Assembly: GCA_014728035.1 (NCBI GenBank)
Contig: WJMJ01000096.1
Span: forward strand, 1 to 64,000
Length of the DNA stretch: 64,000 bases
Reading direction: 5' to 3'
Source: Promethearchaeota archaeon
Lineage (GTDB): Archaea; Asgardarchaeota; Thorarchaeia; Thorarchaeales; Thorarchaeaceae
In this document: piece after piece, positions 414-20,542 of the stretch
Position numbering within the stretch: position 1 is the first letter of the stretch
Layout: the number at the start of each line of letters is the position of its first letter
Position numbers and translations under genes: made by a program
The notes under the pieces: model-generated
Told to the model about the DNA's origin: nothing
The model's input: only the letters and a program-made list of their open reading frames with translations
Databases searched by the model: none

Positions 414-1130
414 TCATTCTCCAAATCTCTTGATAAGCCAACTCCTAAACCAATCAGGCATAACCCAGCCCAACCATGCTGCAACATATGCTCCAGAAAT
501 TAGAAAGCCAGCTATCGTAAAAGCGACATAGAGTGACAATGTCGAAGCTTCGAAGATAGTGAGAATAAAGATAACAACATAAGAGAGGAAATATGTCACG
601 CCCCAAGAACCAACCAGCCAGAATTTTGCTTTTGTGGTTATTCGACTAGCCATTGGTGCAGTCTTGAAACAGCTATAACCCAATGGTACGAACACTAGTA
701 ATGTTAGGAGGAAGAGGAATAGATACACCTCTATCGGCGGGTCATAGAACTCTCCAGCGAGAGCAGTCAGCATAGTAGCATTACCTGCAAGAAATCCAAT
801 GGTAGGAATATACCATTTGTTACGTGGTTGAAATAGCCCTCCATAGAAATATGCCATAGGTACGAATGAGATTAGAAATGTCAAAGAGAATAGAAACGAC
901 ATAACAGGTACTAGGTCTGGAATAACGAAAACACGGAGAAACACCTCTGAAAATGTCGCTCCTATGAGACCTAAGGTTTGAAGTATGAAGGTCAATACCA
1001 ATGATGCAGTTAATGGGTCTTTATCTTGTCGCCATCGATTGAAAAGAACCATTGATGTCCAAATTGCTGCCACAATTGCGATATACGTTGACAGCATATC
1101 GATTGCAAATAGTTCAAAGATATTCTGCAT
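414..1130 (-). CDS. Seven-transmembrane protein in a small-GTPase operon
   Basis: I do not recognise the family. The 238-residue protein is almost wholly membrane: seven hydrophobic helices at about residues 9-30, 38-60, 68-101, 105-127, 132-155, 165-195 and 197-225, with short polar loops and a basic C-terminus (RSWLIKRFGE) that would be cytoplasmic if the N-terminus is outside. There is no signal peptide and no transporter motif. It lies 10 bases downstream of the small Cys-containing protein gene, which follows a Ras-like GTPase gene by 3 bases, so the three are very probably one transcript. Membrane location is firm. A sensor or receptor role feeding the GTPase is inference from this arrangement only; a small-molecule carrier remains possible. 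Confidence 0.85.
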   Translation of the reverse strand: MQNIFELFAIDMLSTYIAIVAAIWTSMVLFNRWRQDKDPLTASLVLTFILQTLGLIGATFSEVFLRVFVIPDLVPVMSFLFSLTFLISFVPMAYFYGGLFQPRNKWYIPTIGFLAGNATMLTALAGEFYDPPIEVYLFLFLLTLLVFVPLGYSCFKTAPMASRITTKAKFWLVGSWGVTYFLSYVVIFILTIFEASTLSLYVAFTIAGFLISGAYVAAWLGWVMPDWFRSWLIKRFGE

Positions 1131-1140
1131 TCACTCCACC

Positions 1141-1392
1141 TCAATATTTCTCAAAATACTCGAGCGCTCTAGATTTTTCATCCTGGGAGTCCTCAGCAAC
1201 CTTATCAGCTACATTATCTCCTCTAATAGCAAATTGTTCATCAAGAAATACTGTAAGAACGTGATCTCCATGGTCAAAAGCAACTGAGAAAACACCAACT
1301 GGTGAAAGGTCTAGTTCGGATGGATCAAGCAACTCTTCATACCACTTTTGGCATCGTTTACAGAACAATCGTACGATTCGTTTCTCAGGCAA
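1141..1392 (-). CDS. Small CxxC protein, candidate partner of the GTPase
   Basis: This 83-residue soluble protein begins with a CKRC knuckle (Cys11, Cys14) that could hold half of a metal site. A beta-rich core follows with HGDHVLTVFLDE and an AIRGDN turn, then a charged helix ending in YFEKY. The core matches the N-terminal about 65 residues of the protein encoded at 12515-13177 (DHFVTVYLDKNGAVRG there), so it is a domain used both alone and fused. It sits 3 bases after the GTPase gene and 10 bases before the seven-TM protein gene. Its function is unknown; an adaptor or regulator of the GTPase is inferred from the operon. Confidence 0.8.
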   Translation of the reverse strand: MPEKRIVRLFCKRCQKWYEELLDPSELDLSPVGVFSVAFDHGDHVLTVFLDEQFAIRGDNVADKVAEDSQDEKSRALEYFEKY

Positions 1393-1395
1393 TTT

Positions 1396-1947
1396 TTACA
1401 CCTTATTAATTGGTATTTCTGATTGTACCTCTAGCACAATCCGTAACAGATTAGAAAAAGCTTCATCGACACCTTCTCCTAGTTTTGCACTAGTTTCAAG
1501 ATATCCTGCAAGATTGTGTTTTTCAGAGAGCTTCTCTGCTTCCATCGCATCGACATCTCGACGTATTCCAATATCGGACTTTGCTCCAATAAGAAGAATT
1601 CTATCTGTGGGGATATGTTCCTGCATTAGCGCTAACCATTCAGTGACATGGAGAAAGGTGTGAAATCTTCCTAGATCAAATACTAACAAAGCACCATCAG
1701 CTCCTTTTGCCCACATTGGGAGCATGAAACGAAATCGTTCTTCACCACCAGCATCCTTGATGGTGACCTGAATATCAGAACCATCAACATCATACTTGCA
1801 AGATTCAACATTCACTCCAACTGTGATTTTCTGAGGTTGATAGCTTCTGTCCAAGAGATAACGAATTAGAGTGCTTTTTCCAACTCCACCTTCGCCAGCT
1901 ACCAATAGAATCTTCCCTGATAGTTCAGCCAATTCAGCACCATCCAA
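1396..1947 (-). CDS. Ras/Rab-like small GTPase
   Basis: A 183-residue protein with the full Ras-type G-box order: Walker A GEGGVGKST (18-26), the switch I Thr in the TVGV context (Thr42), G3 DAGGEE (65-70), G4 as GAKSD (120-124) and G5 ETSAK (150-154). The length equals a bare G domain. Two catalytic or specificity positions are unusual: the residue equivalent to Ras Gln61 is Glu69, and the Asn of NKxD is Ala121. There is no C-terminal Cys motif for lipid attachment; the protein ends in PINKV. It is first in a tight operon with a small CxxC protein and a seven-TM protein. Eukaryote-like small GTPases of this kind are abundant in Asgard archaea. It is expected to be a molecular switch; its partner is unknown. 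Confidence 0.93.
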   Translation of the reverse strand: MDGAELAELSGKILLVAGEGGVGKSTLIRYLLDRSYQPQKITVGVNVESCKYDVDGSDIQVTIKDAGGEERFRFMLPMWAKGADGALLVFDLGRFHTFLHVTEWLALMQEHIPTDRILLIGAKSDIGIRRDVDAMEAEKLSEKHNLAGYLETSAKLGEGVDEAFSNLLRIVLEVQSEIPINKV

Positions 1948-2080
1948 GCTCCAAGTATGAATTCTCCTGAGATATTTGATACAAATCTAGTTTTCAAGCT
2001 TGCTAGGATGGAATCTGGAATATATAATGCCTCAAAACATTCTTGATTTATCTTTGAGAAAATCTAATAGATTTTATGAA

Positions 2081-3039: not shown

Positions 3040-4131
3040 CTACATTTTGAGATAGGGGAATGCAACATAAACTAATAGTGAAGCATCAAACTCATTGCTT
3101 GAGTGACTGGATGAGTCCAATACAGCGCCAAATTCCTCAATGAACATATCTGCAAACATCTCAAGAGATCTCTTCAAGAAGAGCGAAGAGCGTTCCACAA
3201 TTGCAGTAGCTACAATTCCATATTCTTCTCTTGTTGTGACCATGATAGAGCGGTCTTCTGATACAACACGAGTAAGCGGTGCTTCTGAATCTGATACCTC
3301 TTCTACAACTGATGAAATTGCACTGAGAGCCCCAGCAAAAAGATTTGGGTCTCGTTTCTTGCTCATTTCTCCAAAGTGATAGAGATTCATTCCAGTTGTG
3401 GTGTTAACCTGTATATCATAGATATTGATTGGCAACCTGTAGACATACTCAAAATCTGAACCCAGTGTAATTGCAATAGCAATCATCATAGATATCCGAA
3501 TGAAATCAAGGATTGTAGAGATTCCCTCTCCACCTAATGGATTATCGCCATAAAGAGTTGGGACATCATAGAGAATGATTCCTGAGAGATATGCTAACGT
3601 AACTATCATCAGTGCGATAGATAAAATTAGACTTCTTATTTCTGGTAGACGACGATTTGCATCAAGGTAAACCTTTGATCCATAACCAAATACCAGAGCA
3701 GCAAAAAGTCCAAATCCCGCATGCCAAATAAAATCAATGACAGCAACGTTGGCAGAGTCAGCAACAATCCATCCGAAGTACCCGGATAAGATTGAAACAA
3801 TGCCAACCGTGACAACCGCAGATACTATTTTCCAGTCTGGATTCTCATGACGAGTACCAATGAAAAAGAGACCAAACAAGCCAAAGACAAAAGTCCAGAA
3901 AGTAAGAGTGACTCGAGGAATCAGAATTGGACCCAAGTTAAAGATGTCAAATTCGGGTCCAGCTAGCATGATATTAGCAATACCAGCAAATACACCGATT
4001 ATAGTTGCTTCCTTCAAGAAGTAAATTTTCCTGCCTGTTCTTTTCTCTTGGATAATGAAGACTAAAGCTATGAGAGCAAAACCAGTTGTCAATCCAATTC
4101 CAACCAAGAACAATCCAAAATCCATTCTCAA
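3040..4131 (-). CDS. Seven-TM protein with C-terminal roadblock/longin-like cytoplasmic domain
   Basis: Residues 1-232 contain seven predicted membrane helices (about 4-27, 38-59, 65-92, 99-125, 130-156, 164-189 and 202-232). Residues 236-363 are soluble and alternate strand and helix: a TTGMNLYHF turn, a helix LFAGALSAISSVVEEV, strands DRSIMVTTREEYGIVATAIVE, then a long amphipathic helix. This pattern matches the C-terminal domain of the large surface protein at 15744-20423 in order and spacing. The fold looks like the small alpha/beta roadblock or longin domains that serve GTPases, but that assignment is by eye. The gene stands alone with its own promoter, divergent from the NIPA-like gene. 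A membrane sensor that recruits cytoplasmic partners is inferred. Confidence 0.85.
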   Translation of the reverse strand: MRMDFGLFLVGIGLTTGFALIALVFIIQEKRTGRKIYFLKEATIIGVFAGIANIMLAGPEFDIFNLGPILIPRVTLTFWTFVFGLFGLFFIGTRHENPDWKIVSAVVTVGIVSILSGYFGWIVADSANVAVIDFIWHAGFGLFAALVFGYGSKVYLDANRRLPEIRSLILSIALMIVTLAYLSGIILYDVPTLYGDNPLGGEGISTILDFIRISMMIAIAITLGSDFEYVYRLPINIYDIQVNTTTGMNLYHFGEMSKKRDPNLFAGALSAISSVVEEVSDSEAPLTRVVSEDRSIMVTTREEYGIVATAIVERSSLFLKRSLEMFADMFIEEFGAVLDSSSHSSNEFDASLLVYVAFPYLKM

Positions 4132-12417: not shown

Positions 12418-12455
12418 AGTCAGACACTAGGTTAGAATAGTTCAAAGTAAAAAGG

Positions 12456-12488
12456 TGACAAGTAGGTTTTTACGTATCCTACTTGTCA
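12456..12488 (+). promoter_or_regulatory. Perfect 11-base inverted repeat between the permease gene and 12515
   Basis: TGACAAGTAGG and CCTACTTGTCA flank an 11-base T-rich loop. The element sits 38 bases after the permease stop codon and ends 26 bases before the ATG at 12515, followed by TTTATTTTC. It could terminate the permease transcript, or act as a 5' UTR hairpin or operator for the next gene. Confidence 0.6.
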
Positions 12489-12514
12489 TTTATTTTCAAC
12501 AAGAGGTAACAGAT

Positions 12515-13177
12515 ATGCCCAAGATAACGATAAAATGTGTTTGTGGCGAAATTTTTCAACCAGATATTGACTTAGAGAGGTACAAAGAAGAACTAAGTCG
12601 AACAGGACTCATACCTCTTTTAATATCACACAAAGATCATTTTGTAACAGTCTATCTTGACAAAAATGGAGCAGTACGTGGAGTCGAGAGAATTATTTTG
12701 GTGGATGACGATACTACCACACAAGTAGCATCTGAAGAATTTGATGTCCAGGCAATCCAAAACATTGTTTTGGATTTAGCTAAGGATGTTGATCCATCAG
12801 AAGAATATGAGAAATATGTATCAATATTGCTCTTTAAAATCAAACAACCAGAGGCTCTTTTTGTTGCGGGAGAGATAATTGGACGTAGAATGTGGTCAAA
12901 ATGGAGAGAGGCCATCCTACGTATGGGGGCTAAATATGTACCCAAATTAGACTTGATTATTAAAACCGAACTTAAGCCAATTTTGGACAAAGTGGGGAAA
13001 GCAAGTCTACATGGGAATAATGAGATTGTCATAACCAATTGTACCGCACCACAATTTGTGGTTGGTCTTGCACAAGGGGTATTGAACGCTATATCATCAG
13101 CCGCCAAGTCGGATATTAAGATAAAAATTGAATATTCCATCGAAGCAAACAATGTTATGCTTACTGTTATTACATAA
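12515..13177 (+). CDS. Two-domain protein: GTPase-neighbour domain plus V4R-like domain
   Basis: The 220-residue protein starts at an ATG with an AGAGGT ribosome site 8 bases upstream; a longer GTG start would lie inside the hairpin and is rejected. Residues 1-65 match the small protein beside the GTPase (1141-1392): a Cys-containing strand (KCVCG), then HKDHFVTVYLDKNGAVRG. Residues 95-220 resemble the V4R small-molecule-binding fold: a helix around GEIIGRRMWSKW, a region of strands and IVITNCTAPQFVVGLAQG, the position where V4R proteins have a C-x-F-x2-G motif. Function unknown. The shared domain links it to the GTPase cluster at the start of the window; ligand sensing is inferred. Confidence 0.8.
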   Translation: MPKITIKCVCGEIFQPDIDLERYKEELSRTGLIPLLISHKDHFVTVYLDKNGAVRGVERIILVDDDTTTQVASEEFDVQAIQNIVLDLAKDVDPSEEYEKYVSILLFKIKQPEALFVAGEIIGRRMWSKWREAILRMGAKYVPKLDLIIKTELKPILDKVGKASLHGNNEIVITNCTAPQFVVGLAQGVLNAISSAAKSDIKIKIEYSIEANNVMLTVIT

Positions 13178-15743: not shown

Positions 15744-18700
15744 TTATCCAAGATCCAATTCGGAAGATAAATCAAGTGAATTAAGTTCAGAACGGCCGAT
15801 TTGTTCGAGAAGGCCTATCTCATATGCGTCCATAATCAGAAGGTACGTATCAGCAACTCGGACACCACAGCTCGCCATGCTCCTCGCTAACTCGACAAGT
15901 TGGAATGAATCAGACTCTAAGTTATTGACTCCTTCAACAATACACTCGTATTTTTCTGGATATTCTTCTTTATCTTTGAAATGATATTCTCCAAGTAAGA
16001 AGCCATCCATAACATCATCAAAAATGTAATCAAGGGTGGCAATTGTTTTCTCGTCATGAACTTGAGAGGTTTCTACTGAAACAGTATCATCCATTAACTC
16101 GCCAACTCTTCTTGCGTACTCTACCATTCTTTGTTCTTGTTCTTTTGATGCAGGGTTAATAGTAATGAACGCACACATCAACTGTTCAGTAGGTACAGTT
16201 CGCAAGATATCAGATATAGGAATAATTTGGAATAGTGTATCTCGCTCGTTACCTTCAAATTCAGACTGGAAATGAGTTATCGCAGTAATGAAAGCACCAA
16301 TCATACCTTCCTCAAAACCACCTTTGATTGCACGTGAATAAATCGGAAGACCAGATATCTTATGTAAGACAACTAATCCGATGATGTTGTTCGCATCATC
16401 AAATCTGTTTTTAATAGTCATCGCACGTACGAACCGTTCGTGGTCTTTTTGTTTCTTGTATCGATATGCCATGAAGGTGACAGCAATAATACCAATAGCT
16501 GCAGCTGCTCCAGTACCTACAATGGTAGCGGTACGCATTATTTCCCCAGCAATATCTGGTAATGCAGTGATAGATGATGAAAAAGCCCCAGTTAATTCAG
16601 CATTTTCTTGATCAACTGTTATGGACATTTCATAGCCAGATTCACCAGGCCAGGGTGGCGTAATAGTAGTAGAATATGTACCAGGTTCAGACTCTTCAAG
16701 AACTCCAGTTATCGGGCTTATCCCTTCAGCTGTGAGGCGATATTCGACATAGGCACCTGTTGAGGGAGAACCAGTGTCGCTCTCAATGAGTTGAAGTTCA
16801 ATTGTCAGAGGTTGTCCTTGTTGCCAAACAATTGAGTCCATTACAATCTCTAACGGTATTTCATCAACTTCAAAATTGAATGTGCCTTGTTGAGTCTCAT
16901 AACCCAGTTTGCTGAAAACGAATTGAACACGATATGAACCAATTTCATCAGCTCTGATAGTGATGTTGTACAGGCCATCTCCAATATAGTCCCATTCGAC
17001 CCAATCTGAGCCAGTTCCGGAAATAGAGATAGTTGCGTCATCTATACCATTAGTAGAGTTCTCTCTAAGATAGGAGAATTGGAATGTGTTATCTCGGTTA
17101 ATGGTCAAAGCGGAGCTTGGACTGAATATCTGAAGTTCAGAACTGATAGGACGTATTTCTATTGCCAATTCCAATGTGGCGGACTGATAATTCTCCTTGG
17201 AAATAGTTACAATTACTGACCATAATCCGGGTTCTTCTGAGCTAAAACTAAGAATATATTCTTCATCAATCTTTGTTATATTCCATTCAAGACCTTCCAA
17301 GTTCAAACCGGAAAGTTGTATGTTTCCGGATGTGATGTTTTGATTGTAATCTGTTCGTTCATAGAAGACTGAGAAATTATAGACAGACCCGAATACAGTA
17401 ATGATGTTAGAAGTGCCTACAGGATTGTATAGCCTAGTTGGAACTTTGACAACTGTAATCGTCAAGGATGTACTTGCATCGACATGATTTGGAACTGTGG
17501 CAACAAAAACTAATTGAAACGATCCAGTTGTATTTATTGCCATAGTGATTGAATAGTTGCCATCTCCAATTTCCAAGAAATTGAATACAGGAACACTTTC
17601 GGGGAGATTAATGCAGGTGATAGTCGCTTCTTCAACTCCCAAATCGGTTGAATTTTCTAATCTGAAATTAATCTCCATATTCTCATTGATTATTTGGATA
17701 GAACTTTCGAGATCCAAACTCAAAACCATGGACTCATTCGTAAAAGTAAGTGAGAATGTTTCCAACTGAGTAATATGATTAGTCAGATTTGCTTGAATTA
17801 CAATAGAATAGGTTCCTGAAGATGTTGAAGAGATACTGAACGAATAAATTCCATTTCCATGAGCTACTGAATCTCCATAATCAACTCCATCCATGGGAGT
17901 AATAGATGCTATCTCAACTGTTGCATTATCAAGACCATAGTCTGTTGAATTCACATATTCAATAAATACTTCGTATGTTTGCCCATATGAAACTGCAGCT
18001 GCAGAGCCATTCAAGATTGATAATTTGGTTTCAATACTACTAACAAACAGGAACAAAGTGTCCTCGGCAAACTCGTAGAAGCTCTTTGTTGCATGGAACC
18101 TGATAGAATAACTTCCTGCTAATTGGCTTGTAATGTTAACTTGGTAGTTTCCATTTCCAAGAGGAACCACCTGGCCTAAAACAACGCCGCCAGAGCTCCC
18201 GGAATAGGAGATATCAAGTGTAGCTCCATCAATTGGATTACCAAATCTGTCCTCATAATGGAAAATAGCGGTATGATTTGAATACAGTCCTATTTGAGCT
18301 GTGTCTTCACTCAAAAGTAGGAGGTTATTCGTATACACTGTGCGTATTATGAAGGAACAAGATGCGTTATCATAGTAATCAACAGATGCATTTACAATCA
18401 CGGTATTGTTGCCAGGAGAGATTAATGACGTATTGAAATCTGCTTCCCACGACTTTCTAACATCGTTAGGTGAAAAAACAATCTCACTTCCAGACCAATT
18501 AGCCACAATAGATGCTGAAGTCATGATATGTTCGCCATTTTCAGCGTCAATGAAACGGACAAAGTTTGTGATTACTTCACCAACCTCAGTTTCAATGTAT
18601 TCATTGACTGCTATCAGGAGTGATTGGTGGTGTAATTCAAATGAGATTTCATCATAAGCTATCTCACTTCCATTCTCCCAGAATACTTGAACTGACCATT

Positions 18701-20423
18701 GTCCCGCTGAAGCATTGAGAGAGCCAAAAGTTAATGCAGTGCTATTGACGGATCCATTTGTACCGGTAGTATTGTTTTCTAAATACCAAACTGTACCATT
18801 TGGAAATAAATAGGAAATCTCAACCGCACTATCAAGGGAGGGAGTTTCGGAGCTCGTTTCTATTCTTGCAGAAACACGTGTGAGATTTGTGCTTCTAAAA
18901 AGGCTTTCATTCATCCAGTTCGCATTAGAATAGATTTGAGTGTTGATTGTTCTTGCATAGTTAGGTGTATTACCTGATAACTTCCACCAACCAAGTCTTA
19001 TCAATAAAGTATCAGGAATAATAACAAGTCCGGGATATATTTGGCATTGACTAGTCACATCGGATAGAAAAGGATCTTGAATAGTGATATTTTCCCAATC
19101 AGTTGGAAGGGTAATTCTTAAACTGAGATTTTGATATTCTTCAAGTGAGCCCATATATGAGTAGGTTTCAACTACCGTACTACTTCCAAAATCAATAGAA
19201 TAATGGACACCATAAGATGACTCAGCTGTCGTCCAAGTAGTGTTTCCGAATTGGTGAATTTTTAGACGAGTTTCATAGTCAAAAGAAATGGATGAGTTAG
19301 AAGTAAGATTAACAGGAAGTATTTGTTGGTTCCAATAGCTGGTATTGATAACTGAAGAATAACCGACACCATTACTACCAATAACTGAACTAGAAGTGTT
19401 TTCAACATAGAACTTAAAATCTACTTCCTCAAACGAAGGCGCGGTCTGTCCAATTAGACTAATGTCGTCCAACAAAATAGAGATGTAAGCTGTATTCAGG
19501 AAACCATCTTCAATTGTGTCACCATCATAATCTAAGTCAGGGTCCAAATTCAATTCTTCGTCAATGTATAATCCAACCATAATTGTAGATGCATTTCCAA
19601 TTAATGGAAGTGATATTGGAATATCCCCAGATTCGTACCATACATCACGAGAATCGAGTGTTAGTAAACTTTGATTCCAAACAACTATATCATCAACAAA
19701 AACAGACACTGAACAATTACCACTCAATGCATCTCCACCAACACCATCGATTGGTCCTTGGAGATAAAGATATTTCAAACTAAGGATGAAATTTGACGTA
19801 TAAGGCAAATTTGGAAAACTTTGATTCCAGAGAATATAGGTACCAGCAGAATGAAGGAAGGTCGGAAAGTTAACATGAGTAGACTTACCTCTATTTTCTG
19901 CAGAAACATATCCATTAGAGTGATACTCAGCAATTTGTTTTTGTAATTCCTTTGTATCCGGGTTTGTGTCCTTGTGTTCTGGATACCAACCAAAAGGATA
20001 GTAATCAACACTATCATTAAGATTAGTATTAATACCCACAATACCGTCATCAAAAGTTCCATTTACTGCATAAGTTCGAGCAAGATTTGAAACGTTAACA
20101 GATGCTTCGCTGGCAATCCAGTTGTGAGTGATATCTAATTGATGATTGTACTGAAGATTTTGATAGATATCAGTTCTAGCGGAAACAATTCCAGATGTTG
20201 AGTAACCTATCTTTTCTAAACTACGAGAATCTAACACACCATCCCTGCTAGATTCACCTAGTTCATGTGTTTCAGAACTATCCAAGGGTTCGATACTTAT
20301 GTTTTTCAGATTGGGGTTTACAATTGCAGGATTGCAAAACATAGGTATAATCATGACAAATAGCGAGAACACTACTAGGATTTTACCCGAAATCCTCACG
20401 TGCTTTCTTGTTTGCATCCTCAT
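15744..20423 (-). CDS. Giant Ig-like surface protein with TM helix and cytoplasmic roadblock/longin-like domain
   Basis: The 1559-residue protein has a signal peptide (residues 1-28) and a beta-rich ectodomain with a jelly-roll-like part (about 100-600) and at least six Ig/cadherin-like repeats of about 95 residues, each with G-x-Y-x-(I/V)-x2 strands (GNGIYSFSI, GDGNYSITM, GDGLYNITI). One membrane helix (about 1300-1322) and a basic stop-transfer stretch follow. The cytoplasmic tail (1346-1559) begins with a domain matching the tail of the seven-TM protein at 3040-4131 (SGLPIYSR, a helix MIGAFITAITHFQSEF, strand CAFITIN, a long final helix). Start ATG 20423 is chosen; TTG 20432 is possible. 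The topology is that of a receptor joining an outside ligand or contact to cytoplasmic partners. Confidence 0.9.
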   Translation of the reverse strand: MRMQTRKHVRISGKILVVFSLFVMIIPMFCNPAIVNPNLKNISIEPLDSSETHELGESSRDGVLDSRSLEKIGYSTSGIVSARTDIYQNLQYNHQLDITHNWIASEASVNVSNLARTYAVNGTFDDGIVGINTNLNDSVDYYPFGWYPEHKDTNPDTKELQKQIAEYHSNGYVSAENRGKSTHVNFPTFLHSAGTYILWNQSFPNLPYTSNFILSLKYLYLQGPIDGVGGDALSGNCSVSVFVDDIVVWNQSLLTLDSRDVWYESGDIPISLPLIGNASTIMVGLYIDEELNLDPDLDYDGDTIEDGFLNTAYISILLDDISLIGQTAPSFEEVDFKFYVENTSSSVIGSNGVGYSSVINTSYWNQQILPVNLTSNSSISFDYETRLKIHQFGNTTWTTAESSYGVHYSIDFGSSTVVETYSYMGSLEEYQNLSLRITLPTDWENITIQDPFLSDVTSQCQIYPGLVIIPDTLLIRLGWWKLSGNTPNYARTINTQIYSNANWMNESLFRSTNLTRVSARIETSSETPSLDSAVEISYLFPNGTVWYLENNTTGTNGSVNSTALTFGSLNASAGQWSVQVFWENGSEIAYDEISFELHHQSLLIAVNEYIETEVGEVITNFVRFIDAENGEHIMTSASIVANWSGSEIVFSPNDVRKSWEADFNTSLISPGNNTVIVNASVDYYDNASCSFIIRTVYTNNLLLLSEDTAQIGLYSNHTAIFHYEDRFGNPIDGATLDISYSGSSGGVVLGQVVPLGNGNYQVNITSQLAGSYSIRFHATKSFYEFAEDTLFLFVSSIETKLSILNGSAAAVSYGQTYEVFIEYVNSTDYGLDNATVEIASITPMDGVDYGDSVAHGNGIYSFSISSTSSGTYSIVIQANLTNHITQLETFSLTFTNESMVLSLDLESSIQIINENMEINFRLENSTDLGVEEATITCINLPESVPVFNFLEIGDGNYSITMAINTTGSFQLVFVATVPNHVDASTSLTITVVKVPTRLYNPVGTSNIITVFGSVYNFSVFYERTDYNQNITSGNIQLSGLNLEGLEWNITKIDEEYILSFSSEEPGLWSVIVTISKENYQSATLELAIEIRPISSELQIFSPSSALTINRDNTFQFSYLRENSTNGIDDATISISGTGSDWVEWDYIGDGLYNITIRADEIGSYRVQFVFSKLGYETQQGTFNFEVDEIPLEIVMDSIVWQQGQPLTIELQLIESDTGSPSTGAYVEYRLTAEGISPITGVLEESEPGTYSTTITPPWPGESGYEMSITVDQENAELTGAFSSSITALPDIAGEIMRTATIVGTGAAAAIGIIAVTFMAYRYKKQKDHERFVRAMTIKNRFDDANNIIGLVVLHKISGLPIYSRAIKGGFEEGMIGAFITAITHFQSEFEGNERDTLFQIIPISDILRTVPTEQLMCAFITINPASKEQEQRMVEYARRVGELMDDTVSVETSQVHDEKTIATLDYIFDDVMDGFLLGEYHFKDKEEYPEKYECIVEGVNNLESDSFQLVELARSMASCGVRVADTYLLIMDAYEIGLLEQIGRSELNSLDLSSELDLG

Positions 20424-20542
20424 ATTCCCCAAGTATGTTTCGGCGTGAAACTTTTGAAGGTGACGAACTTTGAGTAGGATTTTGAGTTAAAATATCTAAT
20501 AGATAAACTATCCGCGAATGTTTTTTTCGGAAAATCGAAAGG

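Follow-up and report, generated by a model that had tools for sequence, protein, structure and literature searches.

A conserved gene cassette joins a seven-helix membrane protein of receptor-like predicted fold to a small GTPase in an Asgard archaeon

The window analysed here, a stretch of 64,000 nucleotides from a Promethearchaeota archaeon of the Thorarchaeaceae (contig WJMJ01000096.1, positions 1 to 64,000), carries within positions 414–1947 three minus-strand open reading frames (ORFs). Their products are a small GTPase (G), a short, putatively metal-binding protein (C) and a membrane protein with seven predicted transmembrane helices (T). The genes are separated by 3 nt (G/C) and 10 nt (C/T), and the tight arrangement of GTPase, small CxxC protein and seven-helix protein described in an earlier note on this DNA was confirmed. 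It is well supported that T works jointly with GTPase machinery. Most likely, with about an even chance of being right, T acts as a sensor and controls G, assisted by C.

Gene layout and conservation of the cassette

The three genes, with the evidence for each, are:

1396–1947, minus strand: G, small Ras-superfamily GTPase, Rab-like, 183 aa, TTG start (Pfam Ras and Rab2 matches; cassettes in four genera)
1141–1392, minus strand: C, small putative metal-binding protein, 83 aa, TTG start, with a C-terminal helix ending ALEYFEKY (cassette conservation; AlphaFold)
414–1130, minus strand: T, seven-helix membrane protein, 238 aa, ATG start, N-terminus out and C-terminus in, predicted bundle resembling G protein-coupled receptors (GPCRs) with a short helix 8 (AlphaFold; positive-inside rule; Foldseek)

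High-similarity relatives of T were found in three other genera of the family (genomes G008, G012 and G013; the named records among relatives with the cassette are archaeon isolate Dive96_bin4.146 and a Candidatus Lokiarchaeota archaeon). In all three the order and orientation of G, C and T were the same and the flanking genes differed. The identities to the window proteins in these three genomes were 60, 55 and 47% for G, 53, 55 and 46% for C, and 46, 41 and 29% for T. Since order and orientation were kept in three other genera, the arrangement is not due to chance, and its recurrence in four genera with different flanks is one reason to read T and the GTPase as working together. The earlier note had named a lack of conservation of the neighbourhood as a result that would speak against it; the cassette was found in four genera, and the wider T family also adjoins GTPase machinery (see below). 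The cassette was not found in the same-genus genome G001, nor in most of the 47 genomes of the family.

A TATA-like sequence (ATTATATA, minus strand) lies at window positions 2021–2028, some 74 nt ahead of the start codon of G. In G008 (L044, 211–4070) the cassette sits between two copies of a peptidase-like gene, with a T fragment near the second copy, which suggests a past duplication.

Topology and predicted fold of T

AlphaFold modelling of T with 30 relatives (predicted local distance difference test score, pLDDT, 93.4; predicted template modelling score, pTM, 0.89) gave seven long helices and a short eighth, in agreement with the seven membrane helices noted earlier. Counts of Lys and Arg residues (positive-inside rule) placed the N-terminus outside in 30/30 relatives. 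Among the 50 matches listed by Foldseek against the PDB, GPCRs appeared almost throughout, with a probability of ~1 and TM-scores of 0.38–0.61 (about 0.55 for the nearest folds). The uniform N-out orientation and the GPCRs as nearest solved folds are the grounds for a receptor-like reading of T. The predicted fold thus appears GPCR-like, a likeness at modest E-values that gives no proof of descent. The conserved signature of the family lies at the junction of transmembrane helix 7 (TM7) and helix 8:

444–470, minus strand: GWVMPDWFR (T alignment; G221 invariant, P225 nearly invariant)

A search with the T profile against solved structures gave nothing significant. The family 7TMR-DISM_7TM was matched by one of the 30 relatives (3.2e-5) and not by the window T. 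No Lys, as would be needed for retinal binding, is present in residues 197–223 (TM7).

GTPase machinery upstream of the wider T family

A profile built from the four T sequences had matches in 60 of 228 Asgard-phylum genomes and describes an unannotated family. Membership of two sets of distant members was backed by profile–profile probabilities of 97.9 and 98.6%; two other membrane proteins of the window reached 0.1 and 0.4%. For 54 distinct T genes with neighbouring genes, the gene directly upstream on the same strand was inspected. It encoded a roadblock/longin protein in 12 cases, an Arf-like GTPase in 10, a protein of the group termed P in 4 and C in 4 (the G–C–T cassettes), and none of these was found directly downstream of any of the 54 genes. 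The assignment of the roadblock/longin proteins is weak but consistent (Robl_LC7 in 8/12, best 1.4e-4; the solved Robl_LC7 protein 7f8f at 7.8e-4). Because Arf-like GTPases, roadblock/longin proteins or C stand upstream of distant T genes and never downstream, the joint action of T and GTPases gains further support, and T appears linked to different kinds of GTPase machinery. In a tree, the GTPases paired with C separated from those paired with T; T is therefore joined to GTPases of two kinds.

The P proteins could not be assigned to the longins (profile–profile probability of 0.5% against the roadblock/longin set). Upstream of T, most roadblock/longin and P proteins have a C-terminal Trp that closely follows an acidic residue (e.g. 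KLKDSGLW, DDLW). As a docking tag for T this ending was rejected: 25 of 27 roadblock/longin proteins next to T carry it, yet so do 14 of the 28 without T. Some of the latter with this ending lie near acyl-CoA-synthetase-like genes.

Close upstream of the cassette, on the minus strand, a multi-helix membrane protein (window 3040–4131) has a C-terminal part that matches the roadblock/longin profile (E 4.5e-5), which makes it a membrane–longin fusion; as a relative of T it was rejected (profile–profile probability 0.4%). Further along (15744–20432, minus strand), a 1562-aa protein combines a large N-terminal region with a transmembrane helix and a C-terminal domain; by eye this domain looks longin-like, without confirmation by the longin profile.

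The small protein C

The earlier note described C as an 83-residue Cys-knuckle protein. The size and the CxxC stand; with an HGDH motif also conserved, more than a knuckle may be present:

1351–1362, minus strand: CKRC (C11, C14), first half of the putative metal site (alignment of 20 relatives)
1261–1272, minus strand: HGDH (H41, H44), second half of the putative metal site (same alignment)

C14, H41, D51 and R57 do not vary in the 20 relatives, and C11, G42 and H44 hardly do; this conservation points to a possible CCHH metal site. The AlphaFold model of C had a pLDDT of 81. No Pfam match was found for the window C, a fold search with it gave no match and its profile found nothing significant among solved structures.

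The C domain is widespread (197/228 Asgard-phylum genomes). Directly upstream on the same strand, a GTPase was present in 14 of 47 distinct cases of C; within 500 nt downstream it was present in one. That C follows a GTPase so often, although this 4.3-Mb genome has only 36 Pfam Ras matches, also argues for the joint action of T and the GTPase. In some GTPase–C pairs a V4R-like third gene takes the place of T. Contig C125 of the same genome carries two tandem sets of a GTPase, a C domain with winged helix and a V4R-like protein (L047, 5364–7037 and 8412–9983). Such paralogous C-winged-helix proteins match DUF742, the CvnC domain, weakly (17.8–19.5 bits, below the cut-off of 27); the window C does not match. 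C as an exclusively GTPase-linked protein was rejected: the domain is also found at the N-terminus of TPR, coiled-coil and winged-helix proteins that have no adjoining GTPase, so C is a general module. A second C-domain protein of the window (12455–13177, plus strand; E 1.7e-12), with a further C-terminal domain, has no adjacent GTPase.

The GTPase G

G matches Pfam Ras at 1.6e-33, and its nearest solved chains are Rab2B/Rab2A (4.5e-36). All five G-box positions are present, as the earlier note had claimed, though G3 and G4 are altered:

1870–1896, minus strand: G1/P-loop, GEGGVGKST (translation; invariant across the four cassettes)
1732–1755, minus strand: G3/switch II, DAGGEERF, with Glu at the position of Ras Gln61 (alignment of 50 GTPases)
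1573–1584, minus strand: G4, AKSD (alignment of 50 GTPases)
1483–1497, minus strand: G5, ETSAK (translation and alignment)

In this alignment all four cassette GTPases have Glu in place of Gln61, and in all four the Asn of G4 is replaced by Ala or Thr (AKSD, not NKxD, in the window G). From the sequence, the two changes suggest that hydrolysis and exchange are atypical, so G may be controlled at the step of exchange or of recruitment. A C-terminal Cys for prenylation was not found in G, the translation of which ends with EIPINKV.

Proposed mechanism and alternatives

The three genes would form a module, in which T, shaped like a GPCR, acts together with its own GTPase and a putative metal-binding protein. 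T would be the input and detect a ligand or a state of the membrane; its cytosolic loops and helix 8 could change the nucleotide state of G or its recruitment to the membrane, and C might act as co-regulator or adaptor. We infer the physical interaction of the three proteins, the direction of the signal, the ligand and the role of C. The simple analogue of receptor-coupled GTPase signalling put forward in the earlier note is partly supported, by its conserved linkage, by the receptor-like topology and predicted fold of T and by the lack of homology to a characterised transporter; for sensing, the signal from T to G and C as its carrier, we again infer. Several findings weigh against the proposed module. 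T is present in 4 of the 47 family genomes, so the cassette is patchy, and directly upstream of 19 of the 54 T genes none of the searched partners is present. The Foldseek E-values against the PDB, which is rich in GPCRs, are 6e-3 or worse, and among viral structures (BFVD) the best match is a seven-helix membrane protein of a Gordonia phage (8.7e-4), above a herpesvirus GPCR in second place and a histidine kinase further down. The window T has no match above cut-off to a curated family in Pfam or NCBIfam, no GPCR family is among the matches shown for T and its relatives, the class A motifs DRY, CWxP and NPxxY were not found in its translation and no ligand-binding domain or pocket is shown.

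The main alternative turns the direction around, with the GTPase as switch, T as its effector at the membrane or its docking site (for instance a platform for recruitment or a lipid scramblase of GPCR fold) and C as effector or adaptor. The same genomic linkage fits it, and the partner of many distant T genes is a roadblock/longin protein, not a GTPase. Roadblock/longin proteins are platforms for GTPases (PMC10933270), and opsins are reported as lipid scramblases in all domains of life (PMC12805836); both count for this direction. The short loops of T leave little space for a large effector, however, and its predicted fold resembles receptors, not enzymes or channels. We regard the reverse direction as the less probable of the two.

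That T is a transporter or permease merely co-transcribed with a GTPase is highly unlikely. The NCBIfam family MAB_1171c (‘putative transporter’) was weakly matched by 16 of the 30 T relatives (best 2.2e-6) and not by the window T, but single scans gave 15–19 bits (best 18.8) against a cut-off of 100, the label is itself putative and the linkage to GTPases is repeated in other families. Homology to a known transporter, which the earlier note held to be a ground for refutation, was thus found to no characterised member. Equally improbable is a mobile or fortuitous cluster without joint function. The patchy distribution fits it, as do transposase-like genes and the duplicated peptidase-like gene nearby in some genomes; on the other side, the order was kept while the three proteins diverged to 47, 46 and 29% identity, and T and C are both directionally linked to GTPase machinery elsewhere.

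We propose only tentatively that T represents a phylum-wide Asgard family of GPCR-shaped proteins, many of them operon-coupled to a small GTPase or a GTPase-regulating platform, that serve receptor-to-GTPase signalling and resemble the logic of eukaryotic GPCRs by descent or convergence.

Significance

The origin of receptor-coupled GTPase signalling is an open question, and to the many small GTPases of Asgard archaea few partners have been assigned. In the isolate MK-D1, genes for small GTPases generally do not share operons with those for roadblock, longin or TRAPPC3 proteins and are therefore difficult to match to regulators (2024 structural study, PMC10933270). The operons described here, from several Asgard families, name candidate partners, including a membrane protein of receptor-like predicted fold. 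No description of the module was found in the literature searched (open-licence papers only). The cassette and the related operons provide defined sets of proteins with which binding, exchange and localisation can be examined, and a simple receptor-to-GTPase pathway in an Asgard archaeon can now be tested.

Comparison with known systems

T shares seven helices with the microbial rhodopsins, but lacks their Lys in TM7, and with 7TMR-DISM, which matches one relative but not T itself. G has the Ras-superfamily domain of the Rab GTPases, with Rab2 as best solved match; it differs by the Glu at the Gln61 position, AKSD for NKxD and the missing C-terminal Cys. The TRAPP/Ragulator-like roadblock, longin and V4R/TRAPPC3 proteins of Asgard archaea recur around the family, as distant T genes follow roadblock/longin genes and GTPase–C pairs precede V4R-like genes in this genome, whereas genes for roadblock, longin or V4R proteins are missing from the window cassette. 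With the eukaryotic GPCR/G-protein system T shares the N-out/C-in bundle of seven helices, the short helix 8 and a GTPase partner, and GPCRs are its nearest solved folds at modest E-values; it differs in having neither sequence homology nor class motifs, in a putative activity and in a partner that is a single-domain small GTPase and not heterotrimeric. Compared with the conservons (CvnA–D, actinobacterial G protein systems), the cassette is without a histidine kinase (CvnA) or roadblock (CvnB) gene, and the family match to DUF742 is confined to paralogous C-winged-helix proteins, below cut-off. The likeness lies in the operon itself, a membrane sensor (putative in the cassette) with a small Ras-like GTPase and small regulators, in which the conservon sensor is thought to relay its signal to the GTPase via GTPase-activating protein (GAP) and guanine nucleotide exchange factor (GEF) components (PMC13343842).
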